A DNA stretch of 64,000 nucleotides from Rhizobium sp. Q54 (GTDB taxonomy: Bacteria; Pseudomonadota; Alphaproteobacteria; Rhizobiales; Xanthobacteraceae), in NCBI GenBank assembly GCA_945907045.1, contig CAMDSH010000003.1, positions 94,653 to 158,652 on the forward strand, written 5' to 3'. Under the pieces are notes generated by a model, which saw only the letters and a list, made by a program, of their open reading frames with translations, did no database searches and had not been told where the DNA came from. Made by a program: the position numbers and the translations under genes. Below are positions 4,100-64,000 of the stretch, piece by piece; positions within the stretch are counted from its first letter, which is position 1, and each line of letters opens with the position of its first letter.

Positions 4100-5268
4100 G
4101 CACGTCCAACACGCGCCTGCGGATCGGTTTCATTCCGCTGGCGGACGCCACCGCCTTGCTCATCGCGGTCGACAAGGGATTTGCCGCCGCCGAGGGACTC
4201 GATATCGATCTGGTGCGCGAAGTCTCGTGGTCGAACGTGCGCGACAAGCTCAACATCGGCCTGTTCGACGCCGCGCACCTCATCGCGCCGGTCGCCATCG
4301 CCTCCAGCCTCGGCCTCGGCCACGTCAAGGTGCCGATCGTTGCGCCCTTTGGCCTGGGCGTGAATGGCAACGCAATTACTGTGTCGCCAGGCCTTTATGC
4401 GGCGATCGTCGCGGCGGCGGACGGCAACATCATCGATCCGATGGTGTCGGCGCGCGCGCTGGCGCGCGTTGTCGCCAATCGCAAAGCCAAGGGCGAAGAG
4501 CCGCTCACCTTCGGCATGACGTTTCCGTTCTCGACGCACAATTATCATCTGCGCTTCTGGATGGCGGCCGGCGGCGTCGATCCTGACGAGGATGTCCGGC
4601 TGGTGGTGCTGCCGCCGCCTTACATGGTCGAGAGTCTGGCCAACAGGCATGTCGATGGCTTTTGCGTTGGCGCACCGTGGAATTCCGTCGCGGTCGATCT
4701 CGGTATCGGCTTCATCCTGCATTTTGTTTCGGAAATTCTCTCGCGCGCAGTGGAAAAGGTGCTGGGTGTGCGCGGCCGCTGGGCGGAAGAAAATCCGGAT
4801 GTACTCGTCCGGCTTGTACGCGCGCATCATCGCGCTGCGGAGTTCGTCGAAGACCCGGCCAATCTCGACGAAGTCGCGGCGTTGCTCGCCGCGCCAAACC
4901 GGATCGGAGCCACCGCCGAGGTGATCCGCCGCACGCTTGTTGGCCGCATGAAGGTGGCACCCGACGGCACCACGCGCGTGAGCGAGCGTTATCTCCTTAT
5001 CGGGCGTAATGGCGCAGCGCGGCCCGATCCCGCGCAGGCGGCGTGGCTTTACGCGCAGATGGTGCGCTGGGGTCAGGCGCCGCTATCGGACGAATTTCTG
5101 GCGACAGCGAAGGCCGTCTTCCGGCCCGATCTGTATGACGCTGCCGTCGGTCCGGCAGCGCCGCTCCCATCAAGCGAACCTGCCGACGGTATCGGCGCTT
5201 TCACCGGTCCTGCGTTCGATCCAAACGACATCGGCGCGCATCTCGCGGTCTGGAAAATCCGGCGCTGA
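4096..5268 (+). CDS. nasS: CmpA/NrtA-family protein without signal peptide, NasS-like nitrate sensor
   Basis: NrtA/CmpA-like (GFIPLADATALLIAVDKGFAA...), no leader peptide, overlaps nasT by 4 nt. Confidence 0.85.
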   Translation: MSTSNTRLRIGFIPLADATALLIAVDKGFAAAEGLDIDLVREVSWSNVRDKLNIGLFDAAHLIAPVAIASSLGLGHVKVPIVAPFGLGVNGNAITVSPGLYAAIVAAADGNIIDPMVSARALARVVANRKAKGEEPLTFGMTFPFSTHNYHLRFWMAAGGVDPDEDVRLVVLPPPYMVESLANRHVDGFCVGAPWNSVAVDLGIGFILHFVSEILSRAVEKVLGVRGRWAEENPDVLVRLVRAHHRAAEFVEDPANLDEVAALLAAPNRIGATAEVIRRTLVGRMKVAPDGTTRVSERYLLIGRNGAARPDPAQAAWLYAQMVRWGQAPLSDEFLATAKAVFRPDLYDAAVGPAAPLPSSEPADGIGAFTGPAFDPNDIGAHLAVWKIRR

Positions 5269-56792: not shown

Positions 56793-57072
56793 CGCGAACG
56801 CGTGAAGCGCGTCGCGGGCGCCCCTGACGCGGGCGCTCGTGCCGGCGCGCGCGTTTTCCGGTGCGGCAAATGGCGGCGGCGGGCTGGCTTTGGATGCTCT
56901 TGATCGTCCCAAAGTATACAGCAATATTACAATAATCGGCGCGGCTGCATTCAAAGAACTTCTTGCCGTCATTGAACGACATCAGTACAGTTTAAGGAAT
57001 TTCAGGCTTTCGCGCTCTTGTTCACGTTACTTGGCTATTGTCCGCAGCGTTCAGATCAGGGGTTCCCGTCCG

Positions 57073-57492
57073 ATGGCCGACACTCCCGTAAGCGGAAACT
57101 TTATCGAGCTGACGGCGGAAATCGTCTCGGCCTATGTGAGCAACAACACGGTGCCGGCGAGCGACATCCCTGCGCTGATCAGTCAGGTGCATGGCGCGCT
57201 GGCGCGCGTTTCCGGCGGCTTGAGCGATACGCCGAGCGAGCCGCTAAAGCCCGCGGTGTCGGTGAAGAAGTCGATCACGCCGGAACACATCGTCTGCCTT
57301 GAGGACGGAAAGAAATTCAAGTCGCTCAAGCGCCATCTGCGCACGCAATACAACATGACGCCGGAGCAGTATCGCGACAAATGGAGCCTCGGCGCGGACT
57401 ATCCGATGGTGGCGCCGAATTACGCCGCCGCGCGCTCCCAGCTCGCCAAGCAGATGGGCCTCGGCCAGCAGCGCAGGCGCAGGGCGAAGTAA
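57073..57492 (+). CDS. MucR/Ros-family transcriptional regulator
   Basis: [51 protein letters not shown]. Confidence 0.92.
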
Positions 57493-58159: not shown

Positions 58160-58456
58160 CTAAAGCGGACTTAAGAGCATCTTCCGCATAATACTGTCAC
58201 GCGGCTGAGCTACCTTGGGGCAAGATTCAATCTCGGCCTCGATCCGTTCGCGGGTATGCTTCTGAAGCGCGATTATAAATGCGGATAAAAATCCTATTTC
58301 TGTGGACAAGTATTCCCGCTTCAGGCGGTCTTCGCGACCAAATATATGAGAATTCAACAACTTAGTCTGGCAGCGAGGATTTATCCCCGCTGCCCTGATT
58401 TCGGCGAAGATGTAGGTAATTAATCCTATATATATCGTTGACACCCCAAACCTCAA
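58160..58456 (-). other. Chimeric ORF: N-terminus encoded by IS inverted repeat, remainder in flank
   Basis: MRFGVSTIYIGLITY is the complement of the IS1595-like left end; likely fortuitous. Confidence 0.4.
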
Positions 58457-58466
58457 ATGCTAGTAT
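58438..58466 (+). promoter_or_regulatory. Transposase promoter element A
   Basis: TTGACA-17 nt-TAGTAT. Confidence 0.65.
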
Positions 58467-58486
58467 CTGGCCATTGGATAGGAACG

Positions 58487-59431
58487 ATGGTCATGAAAAG
58501 CACATTCGCTGCCACACACTTCCAGAACGATGAGGACGCGAGGAAGGTTCTAGAGGCGGTCCTATGGCCGGAAGGCCCGATCTGCGCTCACTGCGGCGTT
58601 ATCAACCACGCCTACCCTACCAAGCGCGCGGGTGTTTGGCGCTGTGCGGAGTCGAAGTGCCGCAAAGATTTCAGCGTGACCATGAAGACGGTCATGGAGC
58701 GTTCCCATATTGCCTTGCACAAGTGGCTACAAGCGTTCCACCTGATGACTAGCAGCAAGAAGGGCGTGAGCGCTCACCAGCTACACCGCACGTTGAATAT
58801 TACTTATCGGTCCGCATGGTTCATGGCCCATCGCGTTCGCGAAGCTATGCGCGCTGGCGGTCTTGGCCCGCTTGGCGGCGAAGGCAAGATTGTGGAAGCG
58901 GATGAAACTTATTTCGGCCCAACTGAAAAGCCGCGTCCGTCTAAGCAGCGCGGCAATCGCCCGTACAAAGTTGGTTCGCGCGGGCCTCGTGATAAGCGAC
59001 CCATAGTTTCACTCGTTGAGCGCGGTGGTAACGTGCGCTCATTCCATGTTCCAGTTGCTGACAAGGCGACTGTCTCGCAGATCGTGGTCGATAACATTCT
59101 GCGCGAGAGCCGTTTGCACACCGATGAAAGTCGCCTCTATCACGGCGCGGACACGCACTTTGCTTCGCATGAAACCGTGAAGCACAGCGCGAAGGAATAT
59201 GTGCGCGGTGACGTTCACACGAACTCAGCCGAAGGATATTTCTCGATTTTCAAGCGCGGAATGCGCGGTGTTTATCAGCATTGCAAAGAGAAACATTTGC
59301 ATCGGTATCTGGCCGAATACGATTTTCGTTACAACCACCGCTCCGCGCTCGGTATCGAGGACGGGGAACGTGCGACACTCGCCATTGTAAATGCGTCTGG
59401 CAAGCGTCTCACGTACCGTTGCACTCACTAA
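58487..59431 (+). CDS. IS1595-family (ISXO2-like) transposase
   Basis: N-terminal zinc ribbon CAHCG...CAESKCRKDFSV; KIVEADETYFGP; NSAEGYFSIFKRGMRG. Confidence 0.9.
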   Translation: MVMKSTFAATHFQNDEDARKVLEAVLWPEGPICAHCGVINHAYPTKRAGVWRCAESKCRKDFSVTMKTVMERSHIALHKWLQAFHLMTSSKKGVSAHQLHRTLNITYRSAWFMAHRVREAMRAGGLGPLGGEGKIVEADETYFGPTEKPRPSKQRGNRPYKVGSRGPRDKRPIVSLVERGGNVRSFHVPVADKATVSQIVVDNILRESRLHTDESRLYHGADTHFASHETVKHSAKEYVRGDVHTNSAEGYFSIFKRGMRGVYQHCKEKHLHRYLAEYDFRYNHRSALGIEDGERATLAIVNASGKRLTYRCTH

Positions 59432-59484
59432 CCCAACCTTCAAATATCAGGCGGCTCGTTTCGTGCGGTGGCGGAAGAAACAAT

Positions 59485-59673
59485 CTAAGCGGAAGCCGTA
59501 GTTTTCTTACGCAGCTTTCGTTTCAATTTTGGCCGTTTAGGAATCATGCCTTTAAACGGTTGTGCTTGGGCTAATTTTGCGCCGCGTAAAGCAGCTTCAA
59601 AGCGCTGAGCCGCTTCATTCACGGGGTATTGGTCTTCCATTTTTTTCTTCGTCGCGCGCGTCATACTGGCCAT
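59485..59673 (-). CDS. Small basic passenger protein of element A
   Basis: MASMTRATKKKMEDQYPVNEAAQRFEAALRGAKLAQAQPFKGMIPKRPKLKRKLRKKTTASA; resembles protein at 63207-63368. Confidence 0.5.
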   Translation of the reverse strand: MASMTRATKKKMEDQYPVNEAAQRFEAALRGAKLAQAQPFKGMIPKRPKLKRKLRKKTTASA

Positions 59674-59690
59674 GTCATTCGTTATATGTG

Positions 59691-60423
59691 TCAGGCGCTT
59701 TCGACACCTTCGCAAAAAGCCTTCAACTCTTCCGCCAGAGGCTTAAAAACATCATCCCCGATATCAATGGCAGCGGGTTTATTTTTTGCTTTAGAAAAGG
59801 CGGTTCCTGTTGATCTTGAAGGATCTGGTTCATAGGTCGCCGCTATCATGCAACGTAAACGCGCCTTGTCATAACGCTCTGTTTTCCACTTTGCAAAATC
59901 GGTAGGGCAACATTTGAAAAAACTCTCCATGCACTTTGCCTCGGCATCAAATTTCTTAGCCATTGCCTCAACACATAAGCTTTCCAAGCTGCCTTTTTTT
60001 CCATCGGCAGAAACAACGATAATAGATAGCGCTGGCCGAGTAGAGCTTTTTGCAATCTCTTGCGGCTTGTTTGGGACGCCAAACTCGCCGGCATCCGCGA
60101 CCTGTTTTTTTACAGCTTGAAATGTTTCGTCGGCATTTTCGGCAGCATCAACTGCAAGAAGTATTCCTTTCATTCTGGCATTAAGTTCTGGAACTAATTT
60201 GAAATAGTCATTTAACCTCGTGAGCATATTGATAAAGCCATCCCTTCCATGAAGGGCAGGTGCTCCGTCAACGACAAATTTGGGGTGAGGGGGAAATGGA
60301 AAAGAGAAGGGTGGGAGTTTATTTTTTTCTATTAGCCGTTCAAAAAATTCATTATCAGATGCCCCCCTCACAGAGCATCACCAAATTTGCTTCTAGGCGA
60401 TGAGGCTCTGGTAGCTCAACCAT
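59691..60423 (-). pseudogene. TOPRIM-like (DUF3226/RloB-like) passenger gene, frameshifted at G6 tract (60362-60367)
   Basis: Two frames join as MVELPEPHRLEANLVMLCEG|ASDNEFFERLIEKNK...GILLAVDAAENADETF...; one G excess. Confidence 0.65.
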
Positions 60424-60426
60424 TTT

Positions 60427-61488
60427 TTACACTCTTAACTCAAGCCCAGCTTCAATGAGTTCAACGCCCTTTGCTCCATCAATTATTGCAGCTTTACCAA
60501 CCTCGTTTTCTTGAAAAATTCGTATAAATGTAAAATCCTGCGGATGTTTTTTGATCACCGGCACTACGGATTTTAAAAATTCTGAACTATGTGTGGAAGC
60601 AAATACTTGAGTGTTATATTCGCGTGCAAAAGTCAAAATCTGTTCAGCCATTTTTTCGTGACGAGAAAAATGGATTCCGTTTTCTAACTCATCGACATAT
60701 GTTGCCGTCCGTTCAGAATGGGCAATGTGCAAAAGAATTGTGAGTATTTTATTCATCCCTTCGGACACTAAATTTATTGGTATCCTTCTTTTGGCCTTTT
60801 TATATTTAATGAATACCGTGTTTTTTCCCAACTCAATTTCTGTTCGAACATCTTCAATTTCAGGAAATTGCTCCTGCAAGGATTTTATAAATCGCCCCTC
60901 ATTGGTCTGCTTGCTCATATCCGAAAACCACTTCGCATTTTCGGATGAATTGAACGGCGACCGCGCTGCCAAGAATGTTGGGTCAACTCCGCGCGGCGGG
61001 GTTGGACTGCTCGCAAGTGTCCCATTAGGTTGAGTTTGCAGCATTGATTTTGTTGTCTTGCCTGTCGAGTCTGTCCACTCAAAAGCTACGGGGGAATATA
61101 ATTGACCAAGTTGCGGCGGCAGATTCTGATCTGTGAGAGGCAATAAGACAGGAGCGCCCGTATCGTAGTAAAATTTCAAAGTCCGCGTGTCTTCTTCTGA
61201 CCCCTTGAGAATAATTGAACCGACACGTCCTCGTTCAAAATTATGAAATAGGCTCAGATACAGCCCGTCATATAATTCTTGCGGCGATCCAGGCCCCATT
61301 TCCATGCTACGCCACACACGAAACCGTGCGCCTATTTCAGCATTGCTCACGCCAGCCACAAACAGTGCTTCTAAAAAACTAGTTTTCCCAGCGCCGTTGT
61401 CTCCGACAACTAAGTTGACGCGCCGGAAGCCCTTCAGGCTTAGACTTTCAAACAGTCTGAAATTCTGAATCTCGGCAGACTCAATCAT
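60427..61488 (-). CDS. AAA (ABC/OLD/RecF-like) ATPase passenger
   Basis: MIESAEIQNFRLFESLSLKGFRRVNLVVGDNGAGKTSFLEALF (Walker A); YVDELENGIHFSRHEK; VFASTHSSEFLK. Confidence 0.88.
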   Translation of the reverse strand: MIESAEIQNFRLFESLSLKGFRRVNLVVGDNGAGKTSFLEALFVAGVSNAEIGARFRVWRSMEMGPGSPQELYDGLYLSLFHNFERGRVGSIILKGSEEDTRTLKFYYDTGAPVLLPLTDQNLPPQLGQLYSPVAFEWTDSTGKTTKSMLQTQPNGTLASSPTPPRGVDPTFLAARSPFNSSENAKWFSDMSKQTNEGRFIKSLQEQFPEIEDVRTEIELGKNTVFIKYKKAKRRIPINLVSEGMNKILTILLHIAHSERTATYVDELENGIHFSRHEKMAEQILTFAREYNTQVFASTHSSEFLKSVVPVIKKHPQDFTFIRIFQENEVGKAAIIDGAKGVELIEAGLELRV

Positions 61489-61642
61489 TAGATATTCGGA
61501 CCGATGAGCCGGGCCTCCCTTTTTTGTTGGGAGAGTCATAGCACACCCCCAAAGCCTCTAGCGCCGCCCTGTCGGACAGAATCTAGCCCTAGCGGGCTGT
61601 GGTGTAAACAATATATATAGGTAATTAATCCCAATTCTATGG

Positions 61643-61671
61643 TTGACACCACAAGCCACAAATGCTAGTAT
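61643..61671 (+). promoter_or_regulatory. Transposase promoter element B
   Basis: TTGACA-17 nt-TAGTAT. Confidence 0.65.
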
Positions 61672-61698
61672 CTGACCATCAGATAGGGATTGGTGGTC

Positions 61699-62634
61699 AT
61701 GGACCGTTTCAGCGAAACCCGATTTCACGACGATGTCGCCGCTAGGGATTACCTAGAAGCGGTGCTGTGGCCTGATGGCCCGGTATGCGCTCATTGCGGC
61801 GTGATCGGCCATGCCTACAAGACGAAACGCCCCGGCGTGTTCCGCTGTGCCGAACCCAAGTGCCGCAAAGATTTCAGCGTCACCATGAACACGGTTATGG
61901 AGCGCTCCAAGATCGCCCTGCATAAATGGATGCAGGCTTTCCACCTGATGTGTTCAAGCAAGAAGGGCATCAGCGCGCATCAGATGCACCGCACGATGGA
62001 CATTACTTACGAAGCCGCGTGGTTCATGGCTATGCGTATCCGTAAGGCGATGGAAGCTGGGGGCCTCAGCCCTCTGGGCGGTGAAGGCAAGATCGTTGAG
62101 GCGGACGAAACCTATTTCGGCCCGACTGAAAAACCGCGCGTCTCAAAACAGCGCAAGGGTCGTCCTTACAAAGTCGGCTCCCGTGGCCCGCGTGACAAGC
62201 GCCCGATTGTTTCGCTTGTCGAACGCGGCGGTAACGTGCGTTCCTTTCATGTGGCCGTGGCCGACAAAGTGAACGTGCAGGCAATCGTCGCCGCGAACAT
62301 TGCGAAAGAGAGCCGCCTGCATACGGACGAAAGCCGTCTTTACACTGGCGCTGACACTTACTTTGCTTCGCATGAAACCGTGAAGCACAGCGCGAAAGAG
62401 TACGTGCGCGGCGATGTACATACGAATAGCGCGGAAGGTTATTTCTCAATCTTCAAACGCGGCATGAAAGGCACTTATCAGTTTTGCAAAGAGAAACACC
62501 TGCATCGGTATCTCGCGGAATTTGATTTCCGTTACAATCACCGAATCGCGCTTGGCTTTAGTGATGGCGAACGTGCCGCGCTTGCTGTGAAGGCTTCGGC
62601 TGGCAAGCGTCTCACGTATCGGGGGTCTCACTAG
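61699..62634 (+). CDS. IS1595-family (ISXO2-like) transposase
   Basis: CAHCG...CAEPKCRKDFSV; KIVEADETYFGP; NSAEGYFSIFKRGMKG; close homologue of 58487-59431. Confidence 0.9.
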   Translation: MDRFSETRFHDDVAARDYLEAVLWPDGPVCAHCGVIGHAYKTKRPGVFRCAEPKCRKDFSVTMNTVMERSKIALHKWMQAFHLMCSSKKGISAHQMHRTMDITYEAAWFMAMRIRKAMEAGGLSPLGGEGKIVEADETYFGPTEKPRVSKQRKGRPYKVGSRGPRDKRPIVSLVERGGNVRSFHVAVADKVNVQAIVAANIAKESRLHTDESRLYTGADTYFASHETVKHSAKEYVRGDVHTNSAEGYFSIFKRGMKGTYQFCKEKHLHRYLAEFDFRYNHRIALGFSDGERAALAVKASAGKRLTYRGSH

Positions 62635-62689: not shown

Positions 62690-63148
62690 TCACGCACCTA
62701 GATTATCAAGCGCGCGAGCAAGAGATTCTCGCAATTCGTTTTTGACGGGTGTGTGACCATTCCCGTGGCGCTCAATTAGTCCGTCTCCCGTAAACTGGCT
62801 CAAGAATGGGTCAGAAATTGAATTTGGATTGCGTGTATTCAACAGCCGGCGAAGCGCCGCACGCGTTTCAATCGTATACTTGGCCACAATGCCGTGAATG
62901 TGTTTGTCTAGTTCTAGATCACGAGGAGATAAGACCAAATCAATCTGCGCCAATCCCTGCAACAGAAAGCCCCCCGCAGGCAGCCGCCCAATAAATGCCT
63001 CGGTGCCTTTAGGAGCGCGGCCCCAAACAATAAAAAATAGTGCCAAGATGGCCAAAGGAAATTGCAGCCAAATGTATTCCCTGGCGCTCACGGCCAACAT
63101 CGCCACGATAAGTCCGATCCCCAATGTCGTTCTGTCGCGGCTAGCCAT
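62690..63148 (-). CDS. Hypothetical membrane protein, passenger of element B
   Basis: N-terminal TM helices; intact ORF. Confidence 0.5.
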   Translation of the reverse strand: MASRDRTTLGIGLIVAMLAVSAREYIWLQFPLAILALFFIVWGRAPKGTEAFIGRLPAGGFLLQGLAQIDLVLSPRDLELDKHIHGIVAKYTIETRAALRRLLNTRNPNSISDPFLSQFTGDGLIERHGNGHTPVKNELRESLARALDNLGA

Positions 63149-63206: not shown

Positions 63207-63368
63207 TCACTTGGCTTTCTTAATTTTAGGCCGTTGTGCCTTAGGCCGCTTCGGAGTCAGACTTTCTTTGTGCTGTGGTCCAGCAATGCGAGCGCCCAGC
63301 AGCGCGGAGCGCATGCGGGCATTTGTTTCTTTTGCGTTGTAATCGTCAGACGATTTGGATTTTGTCAT
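63207..63368 (-). CDS. Small basic passenger protein of element B
   Basis: MTKSKSSDDYNAKETNARMRSALLGARIAGPQHKESLTPKRPKAQRPKIKKAK; resembles 59485-59673. Confidence 0.45.
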   Translation of the reverse strand: MTKSKSSDDYNAKETNARMRSALLGARIAGPQHKESLTPKRPKAQRPKIKKAK

Positions 63369-63903
63369 GAAAGCAAAAACCTTATTAGGGACGATCACCA
63401 CAGCCGAAGGGAAGAAATTTCCGGTTTACACTTTAAGCCGCTCAGAAGCCATGGCGACTTTTCGTCCCTATGGAGCCGCACTAGGCCAACTCGCTTTTTC
63501 TTGGAATACTCTTCATGACGCGCTTTCTGGAATTTTCAAATTTGTTGTTCTTTCGCCTAACATAAAAATTCCGTCAGCAATTTGGTTTTCATCTGATAGT
63601 GACTTCGCGCAACGAAAAATGCTTCGAGAAGCCCTACAAGTCGCTGACCACCTACCCAAAAAGCAATCAGACGATCTCATGTGGCTGCTCAATAAAATTG
63701 ACGAGTCGCTCAGGCATAAACGGAATGACGTTATTCACGTCCCAGTTAGCATCACCCGGGGTGTTCTTAATGATAAACTGCGCGCATGGGTGACAGCAAA
63801 CATGCAGTCCGACAATCCGCGTGCCAAACGATTTTTCACAAATGGGGCGAACAGAGCCGGTCCCGGGAATCTGCACAGGACGATAAGTGGAATTTCTGCC
63901 TGA
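63367..63903 (+). CDS. Hypothetical protein with HEPN-like RNDVIH motif, possibly 3'-truncated by IS3 insertion
   Basis: SLRHKRNDVIHVPV fits Rx4-6H HEPN motif; atypical C-terminus abutting IS3-like sequence. Confidence 0.5.
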   Translation: MKAKTLLGTITTAEGKKFPVYTLSRSEAMATFRPYGAALGQLAFSWNTLHDALSGIFKFVVLSPNIKIPSAIWFSSDSDFAQRKMLREALQVADHLPKKQSDDLMWLLNKIDESLRHKRNDVIHVPVSITRGVLNDKLRAWVTANMQSDNPRAKRFFTNGANRAGPGNLHRTISGISA

Positions 63904-63940
63904 CGGCGGGCACGCTGTGCCCTGCGAATCAGGAGAGACC

Positions 63941-64000
63941 ATGACAAGACGACCCCGTCGGAACCACACACCGGCCTTCAAGGCTAAGGTGGTGCTTGCC
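63941..64000 (+). CDS. IS3-family transposase OrfA N-terminus (truncated by window end)
   Basis: MTRRPRRNHTPAFKAKVVLA; AGGAGAG ribosome-binding site upstream. Confidence 0.75.
   Translation, partial: MTRRPRRNHTPAFKAKVVLA

Follow-up and report, generated by a model that had tools for sequence, protein, structure and literature searches.

A cargo-carrying IS1595-family transposon from an alphaproteobacterial clade and its probable target palindrome, TAGG-N8-CCTA

Introduction

Members of the IS1595 family that carry cargo, termed transporter IS, are already known (Siguier 2009, cited in PMC3129680 and PMC7986276). Insertion at a set distance from a protein-binding site has been reported from a different family: members of the ISAjo2 group (IS1202 family) insert 5 bp away from the XerC site of dif/pdif (PMC10132070). 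With respect to possible cargo, a comparable pair is PARIS; its ATPase AriA senses infection and releases AriB, a TOPRIM tRNase (PMC12409363; also PMC10568477). The routes by which defence genes pass between genomes are mostly unmapped.

The locus examined here contains an element, designated A, which shares with the known cargo-carrying IS1595 members a transposase with a Zn ribbon and an ISXO2-like DDE domain, an 8-bp duplication, inverted repeats of about 24 bp and passengers downstream of the transposase. Its size and passenger content would fit the ISNwi1-type subgroup of cargo-carrying IS1595 elements.

Methods

The transposase was used to gather relatives in the genome collection as well as in whole genomes of the genus and the order. 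A script which sought only inverted ends and an 8-bp duplication accepted 106 elements; six of these score 29-31, i.e., inside the random range, and were retained for their recognisable end sequences. As a random control, the search for ends was repeated with 300 randomly chosen starting points in the window, the whole 64-kb stretch of DNA that was analysed.

Boundaries and genes of element A

The original prediction, an IS1595-like element with an exact 8-bp target-site duplication and matching end repeats, is borne out. Pfam and NCBIfam both assign the transposase to the IS1595 family, and the two structural hallmarks of the family are present: inverted repeats which match at 21 of 24 positions and a duplicated octamer, TAATTAAT, which is exact (8/8) on both sides. 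Element A thus delimited spans 58425-61621 (3,197 bp). The octamer occurs twice in the 64-kb window, both times at the ends of A. The end score is 34.5 against a best value of 31.0 in the random control (mean 27.2, sd 1.0). Element A can be described as a transposon of the IS1595 family which carries cargo and belongs to an alphaproteobacterial clade; all bounded elements of this clade have passengers.

The gene content is also as predicted (Table 1): a transposase on the forward strand and, on the reverse strand, an AAA ATPase, a TOPRIM-like gene assigned here to DUF3226 and a small basic protein. The cargo was said to be AT-richer, and its G+C content is indeed 0.45 compared with 0.55 in the transposase part. 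The transposases of A and of a neighbouring element B both possess the ISXO2-like DDE domain and the N-terminal Zn ribbon, with matches to PF12762, PF12760 and NF033547 far above the cut-offs; the homology of the A transposase to that of B begins at residue 11.

Table 1. Features of the two IS1595 elements and their junctions (positions in the window; E-values as given by the respective models)
Feature	Position	Strand	Evidence or remark
TAGG, left half of pre-existing palindrome TAGG-N8-CCTA	58413..58416	.	identical TAGG in G005 site
Left 8-bp target duplication, TAATTAAT	58417..58424	.	repeat exact at other end
Left terminal inverted repeat, element A	58425..58448	+	end comparison
IS1595 transposase of A	58457..59431 (likely start 58487)	+	PF12762 7e-35, PF12760, NF033547 7e-61
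Small basic accessory protein, type 1, 51 aa from ATG	59485..59640	-	open frame to 59715
DUF3226 (putative TOPRIM) gene	59691..60423	-	PF11536 7.5e-12; PADLOC PDC-M38B 5.5e-5
ABC/OLD-type AAA ATPase, cargo	60427..61539	-	PF13175, PF13304; PADLOC AbiLi 1.7e-47, PDC-M38A 1.3e-37, AriA 6e-23
Right terminal inverted repeat, element A	61598..61621	-	end comparison
TAATTAAT, common to right end of A and left end of B	61622..61629	.	
Left end of element B, CCCAATTCTATGGTTGACACCACA	61630..61653	+	
IS1595 transposase of B	61690..62634	+	NF033547 5.5e-60; 80% identical to A
152-aa ORF, passenger of B	62690..63148	-	no family found
Small basic accessory of B	63207..63401	-	BLASTP 2e-9 to A accessory, 42% over 45 residues
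Passenger ORF of B, HEPN-like RNDVIH motif (by reading)	63355..63903	+	probably cut by IS3-family insertion

The motifs of the ATPase in element A are intact. A search of 397 genomes of the order at E <= 1e-25 retrieved its own copy and no other; viral contigs gave no match and phages a single partial one. A PDB sequence search matched the ATPase to Rad50 only (E 0.009) and the DUF3226 protein to no entry.

The DUF3226 gene starts with an ATG at 60423 and is frameshifted within six consecutive G (60362-60367), which leaves 59691-60371 open. In this part of the gene (60355-60423) the frameshift falls right at the first TOPRIM motif, and the second acidic motif reads D-A-A in place of the D-x-D of its relatives. 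Judged by its sequence this copy probably has no activity, provided that the assembly is correct at the frameshift. The run of six G may be a variable homopolymer, as in phase variation, or a product of the assembly; either is possible.

Element B, the uninterrupted site and the layout of the locus

A second IS1595 element, B, of which the original prediction made no mention, begins at 61630 and directly abuts the right TAATTAAT. The array order is TSD-A-TSD-B. A search of the whole assembly that tolerated 3 mismatches did not retrieve the right end of B, and B's own duplication is thus unseen. The contig of the window stops at the window edge, within an apparent IS3-family orfA (63900-64000). 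Another contig of the same genome opens in the C-terminus of an apparent IS3-type orfB, followed by a 5'-truncated DnaA_C-type HTH gene. Most simply, the two contigs would form a single locus and be joined through the IS3 element, in the order TAGG-TAATTAAT-A-TAATTAAT-B(truncated)-IS3-DnaA_C(truncated). Together, window positions 63900-64000 and the end of contig C8 (L212) suggest an IS3-linked deletion at this locus.

A search for an empty site in related strains had been proposed, and a relative of the site without the element does exist in G005, a genome of the same genus. There the left flank runs on as TATGTAGG-TAATTAAT-CCTAGAGG-TAATTAAT-CCTAGAGGAATTCGCCCC-ATG, and the gene which follows belongs to Bac_DnaA_C (PF08299, 9e-13). 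This uninterrupted site fixes the left boundary of A and demonstrates that TAGG and CCTA pre-exist. The G005 site is not pristine; it contains a perfect 16-bp tandem repeat, TAATTAATCCTAGAGG (L203, G005:C70 at about 5169-5184), either a product of slippage or the footprint of a lost element. Upstream of element A lies a MucR/Ros regulator gene (56839-57492), and in genome G020 a TAGG-N8-CCTA site follows the end of a gene that reads as mucR.

The original prediction carried the caveat that part of the 14-bp block common to both junctions, TAGGTAATTAATCC, could be element sequence. This holds for the terminal CC alone, which is the start of A in the left copy and the start of B in the right copy; TAGG is pre-existing target and TAATTAAT is the duplication.

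Relatives, accessory proteins and passengers

All 106 bounded relatives are 1.6-7.1 kb long. Since a transposase needs about 1 kb, no bare IS is present among them. The 7.1-kb element (L158, 2013-9113) holds a nested, divergent IS1595 transposase and its outer boundary is less certain.

The small basic protein had been counted as cargo. This does not hold: it is an accessory of the transposase clade, a small charged protein which occurs in two types and, taking either type, in 93 of the 106 elements. Type 1, searched with a profile built from the two small proteins of the window against six-frame peptides downstream of the transposase, is present in 54 elements. In flanking control DNA the same profile gave four matches; all of them are at tandem loci, so that the flanking DNA belongs to the adjacent element. 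Type 2 is encoded on the sense strand (RFxEAARELGxDES), and its profile reached 46 elements; six ORFs match both profiles. The accessory type switches once on the transposase tree, which indicates that the accessory is inherited together with the transposase. Example members could be assigned to no family of Pfam, NCBIfam, PADLOC or PHROGs at the thresholds applied; a single match, to Pfam, fell below its cut-off. At a guess, the accessory is a transposition cofactor or a nucleic-acid-binding protein. The comparison was widened to the class with 27 bounded elements, almost all of which come from other orders; every element of this class-wide sample is cargo-sized and 22 possess an accessory.

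The passengers are diverse. Among 142 passenger ORFs of at least 150 aa there are 19 DUF3800 and three RelA/SpoT proteins, and two each of DNA methylase, SocA/Panacea, PIN and the AAA-DUF3226 pair. Of 161 passenger ORFs of at least 120 aa, 30 contain a HEPN-type RNx3-4H motif, compared with 5.15 in shuffles. The two AAA-DUF3226 pairs are those of the window element and of L173, the transposase of which belongs to another subclade; cargo therefore moves between elements. The pair is also carried by an E. coli ColE1-type plasmid without an annotated transposase, and related ATPases are found on similar small plasmids. Cargo without IS ends had been named as an observation that would speak against the element. 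It does occur, on small E. coli plasmids, and demonstrates that the cargo is modular; the element is not disproved by it.

Target sites and tandem pairs

When the outward flanks of the 40 elements with CC ends are aligned, both sides read C (0.99), C (0.88), T (0.85) and A (0.76), with no signal beyond. Without the tandem elements, and with a slightly different CC grouping, the frequencies are 0.95, 0.86, 0.83 and 0.68. A near-fixed outward CCTA on both sides means that the target is a palindrome, TAGG-N8-CCTA. Among 104 targets, roughly 62% have G at positions -1/-2; within the CC-end group the share exceeds 85%. The palindrome often coincides with the promoter of an operon for a DnaA_C/DUF6456 regulator: DnaA_C and/or DUF6456 genes adjoin 16 of the 106 sites, 14 of which are among the 39 CCT-type targets. 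TAGGW8CCTA is present in four of 41 genomes of the genus, at one site each; the window junction and the G005 site account for two of these, and a DUF6456-type gene follows the remaining two. The palindrome is absent from some sites, 33 of the 106 having neither a CCT flank nor one of the boxes described below. In the class-wide sample, CCT targets were seen with the two transposases of highest similarity.

Ends and targets are associated (Fisher test, 1.9e-7). Over phylogenetically independent pairs the count is 3 to 0, which is not significant, and for this reason we treat end mimicry as a hypothesis. Three elements with GGCG ends use targets of the TAGG-N8-CCTA type, so mimicry is not required.

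Five tandem pairs, i.e., the window pair and those at L014, L129, L135 and L023, lie exactly 8 bp apart and have one octamer in common each. In a sixth, L224, from another order, the octamers are offset by 1 bp. Tandem pairs are arranged head-to-tail as well as head-to-head, and some join different subclades. At L154 (near 8262) and in the outer flank of L184, lone IS1595 ends abut the duplication and no transposase was detected; these are probably remnants of former tandem partners.

Six elements (L017, L124, L126, L129, L148, L153) sit directly upstream of a recurrent promoter-like CCTTGACAGCGTGACG...GGGTAGG. Targeting to tRNA genes was rejected, with two tRNAs within 600 bp of the 106 sites. 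It was likewise rejected that the accessory type dictates the target; a type-2 subclade shares the CCTA targets of the type-1 clade.

A sister group at GAACN7GAAC boxes

A different picture is seen in a sister group. In 14 of the 106 elements, mainly those with GG ends, a GAACN7GAAC motif adjoins the duplication, always oriented outward, and 13 of the 14 motifs are centred 15-16 bp from the centre of the octamer. The background of GAACN7GAAC is 21 in 1.27 Mb. We take this motif to be the alphaproteobacterial LexA (SOS) box. The loci concerned are L048, L160, L047, L144, L046, L050, L187, L200, L061, L171, L169, L041, L170 and L008. Nine of these elements lie between apparent comM/yifB and gshB genes, one beside ssb and the others elsewhere (gene names by reading); with nine elements in a single comM-gshB intergenic region, the SOS sites are not all independent. 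The exact spacing was not found in the 27 class-wide elements, nearly all of which stem from other orders.

Discussion

We consider it very probable, on the strength of these sequence comparisons, that element A is a cargo IS1595 member whose clade targets TAGG-N8-CCTA and whose ends recreate this target, such that tandems arise. Element A combines a transposase, the clade-conserved small basic accessory and a two-gene module of a PDC-M38/PARIS-like type, consisting of an ATPase and a DUF3226 protein, a putative TOPRIM nuclease. The transposase clade would make an 8-bp staggered cut in the AT-rich centre of the operator-like palindrome, at this locus probably in the promoter of the DnaA_C-type HTH gene. 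As the ends start with CCTA or CCCA and hence resemble a target half-site, insertion would regenerate the target, with a near-perfect TAGG-N8-CC remade at each junction. The next element could then enter the same octamer, and arrays such as A-B would be formed. Regeneration of the target would explain both the 14-bp block and the tandems which share an octamer. The transposase itself may read the target, and the ends may have been selected to mimic it.

Could the target bias be a matter of survival? Insertion might be broad in AT-rich DNA, with only the intergenic promoter copies persisting and the tandems generated by recombination. Many duplications are AT-rich and several sites are located in promoters, as such a scenario would have it. 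Yet survival yields neither the near-fixed CCTA which flanks the octamer on both sides, nor the fixed distance of 15-16 bp to the SOS boxes, nor elements of different subclades with exactly one octamer in common, and we regard this explanation as improbable. Even less can be said for A and B as one larger composite which moves as a unit with TAATTAAT internal. They are adjacent, have the same orientation and encode related transposases, but A by itself already possesses inverted ends that match and a complete duplication. Moreover, other pairs are also head-to-head, mix subclades and have a different octamer per pair. We hardly give this any credence.

The assignment of the cargo is a different matter. 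Homology suggests that it is defensive, and by analogy with PARIS the ATPase-DUF3226 pair would likely act through abortive defence. The defence module of the original prediction is a matter of homology: both genes match the PADLOC candidate PDC-M38, and the DUF3226 gene of this copy is frameshifted. It is quite possible, if not the reading which we favour, that the pair is a housekeeping or addiction module or simply dead cargo: besides the frameshift, one acidic TOPRIM position is altered. Such a role sits less well with the intact ATPase motifs, with the recurrence of the pair in another subclade (L173) and on small enterobacterial plasmids, and with the PDC-M38 matches of both halves.

A wider proposal may be ventured, to which we would assign just short of an even chance. 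The alphaproteobacterial IS1595 cargo elements may be homing carriers. Their transposase, perhaps together with the accessory, would recognise operators bound by regulators, i.e., the palindrome of DnaA_C/DUF6456 operons and, in another clade, LexA boxes. It would regenerate the target and so build, at fixed sites, tandem mini-islands of exchangeable defence and toxin genes. If true, minimal elements with a single transposase find specific regulatory sites by homing, need no Tn7-like targeting proteins for it and restore the site with their own ends. Such elements would provide a simple and testable model both for targeted transposition and for the growth of small defence arrays. Further, the fixed LexA-box spacing of the sister group raises the question of whether the transposase reads the DNA or the bound repressor.

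In the open literature we found no relevant report of an IS1595 element with target specificity or with a connection to LexA or comM. The nearest precedent for the SOS-box group is the ISAjo2 group, which likewise inserts close to a protein-binding site, at a set distance and in one orientation towards it. It differs in its transposase family, its 5-bp duplication, the absence of passengers and its site, dif, as opposed to a LexA box or a regulator promoter.

As in PARIS, the ABC ATPase and its putative TOPRIM partner are encoded by two genes which lie next to each other. In contrast to PARIS, the ATPase scores higher against AbiLi and PDC-M38A than against AriA and its partner is a frameshifted DUF3226; no AriB model in PADLOC gave a match at E up to 1. 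In PDC-M38, too, the two genes are adjacent, and those of element A match its A (1.3e-37) and, weakly, its B component (5.5e-5). Here, however, an IS harbours the pair and the frame of the B gene is disrupted, and PDC-M38 itself is listed as a candidate system only. By sequence, the pair resembles PDC-M38 more closely than PARIS.

For operator targeting, tandems with a shared octamer and a co-inherited accessory in IS1595 no report was found in the open-access literature. Element A departs from the described cargo-carrying IS1595 elements in its operator-like TAGG-N8-CCTA target, its shared-octamer tandem and an accessory family inherited with the transposase. Thus, it is a further member of the known cargo-carrying IS1595 group, and what sets it apart is targeting with regenerated sites, the tandems and the co-inherited accessory.
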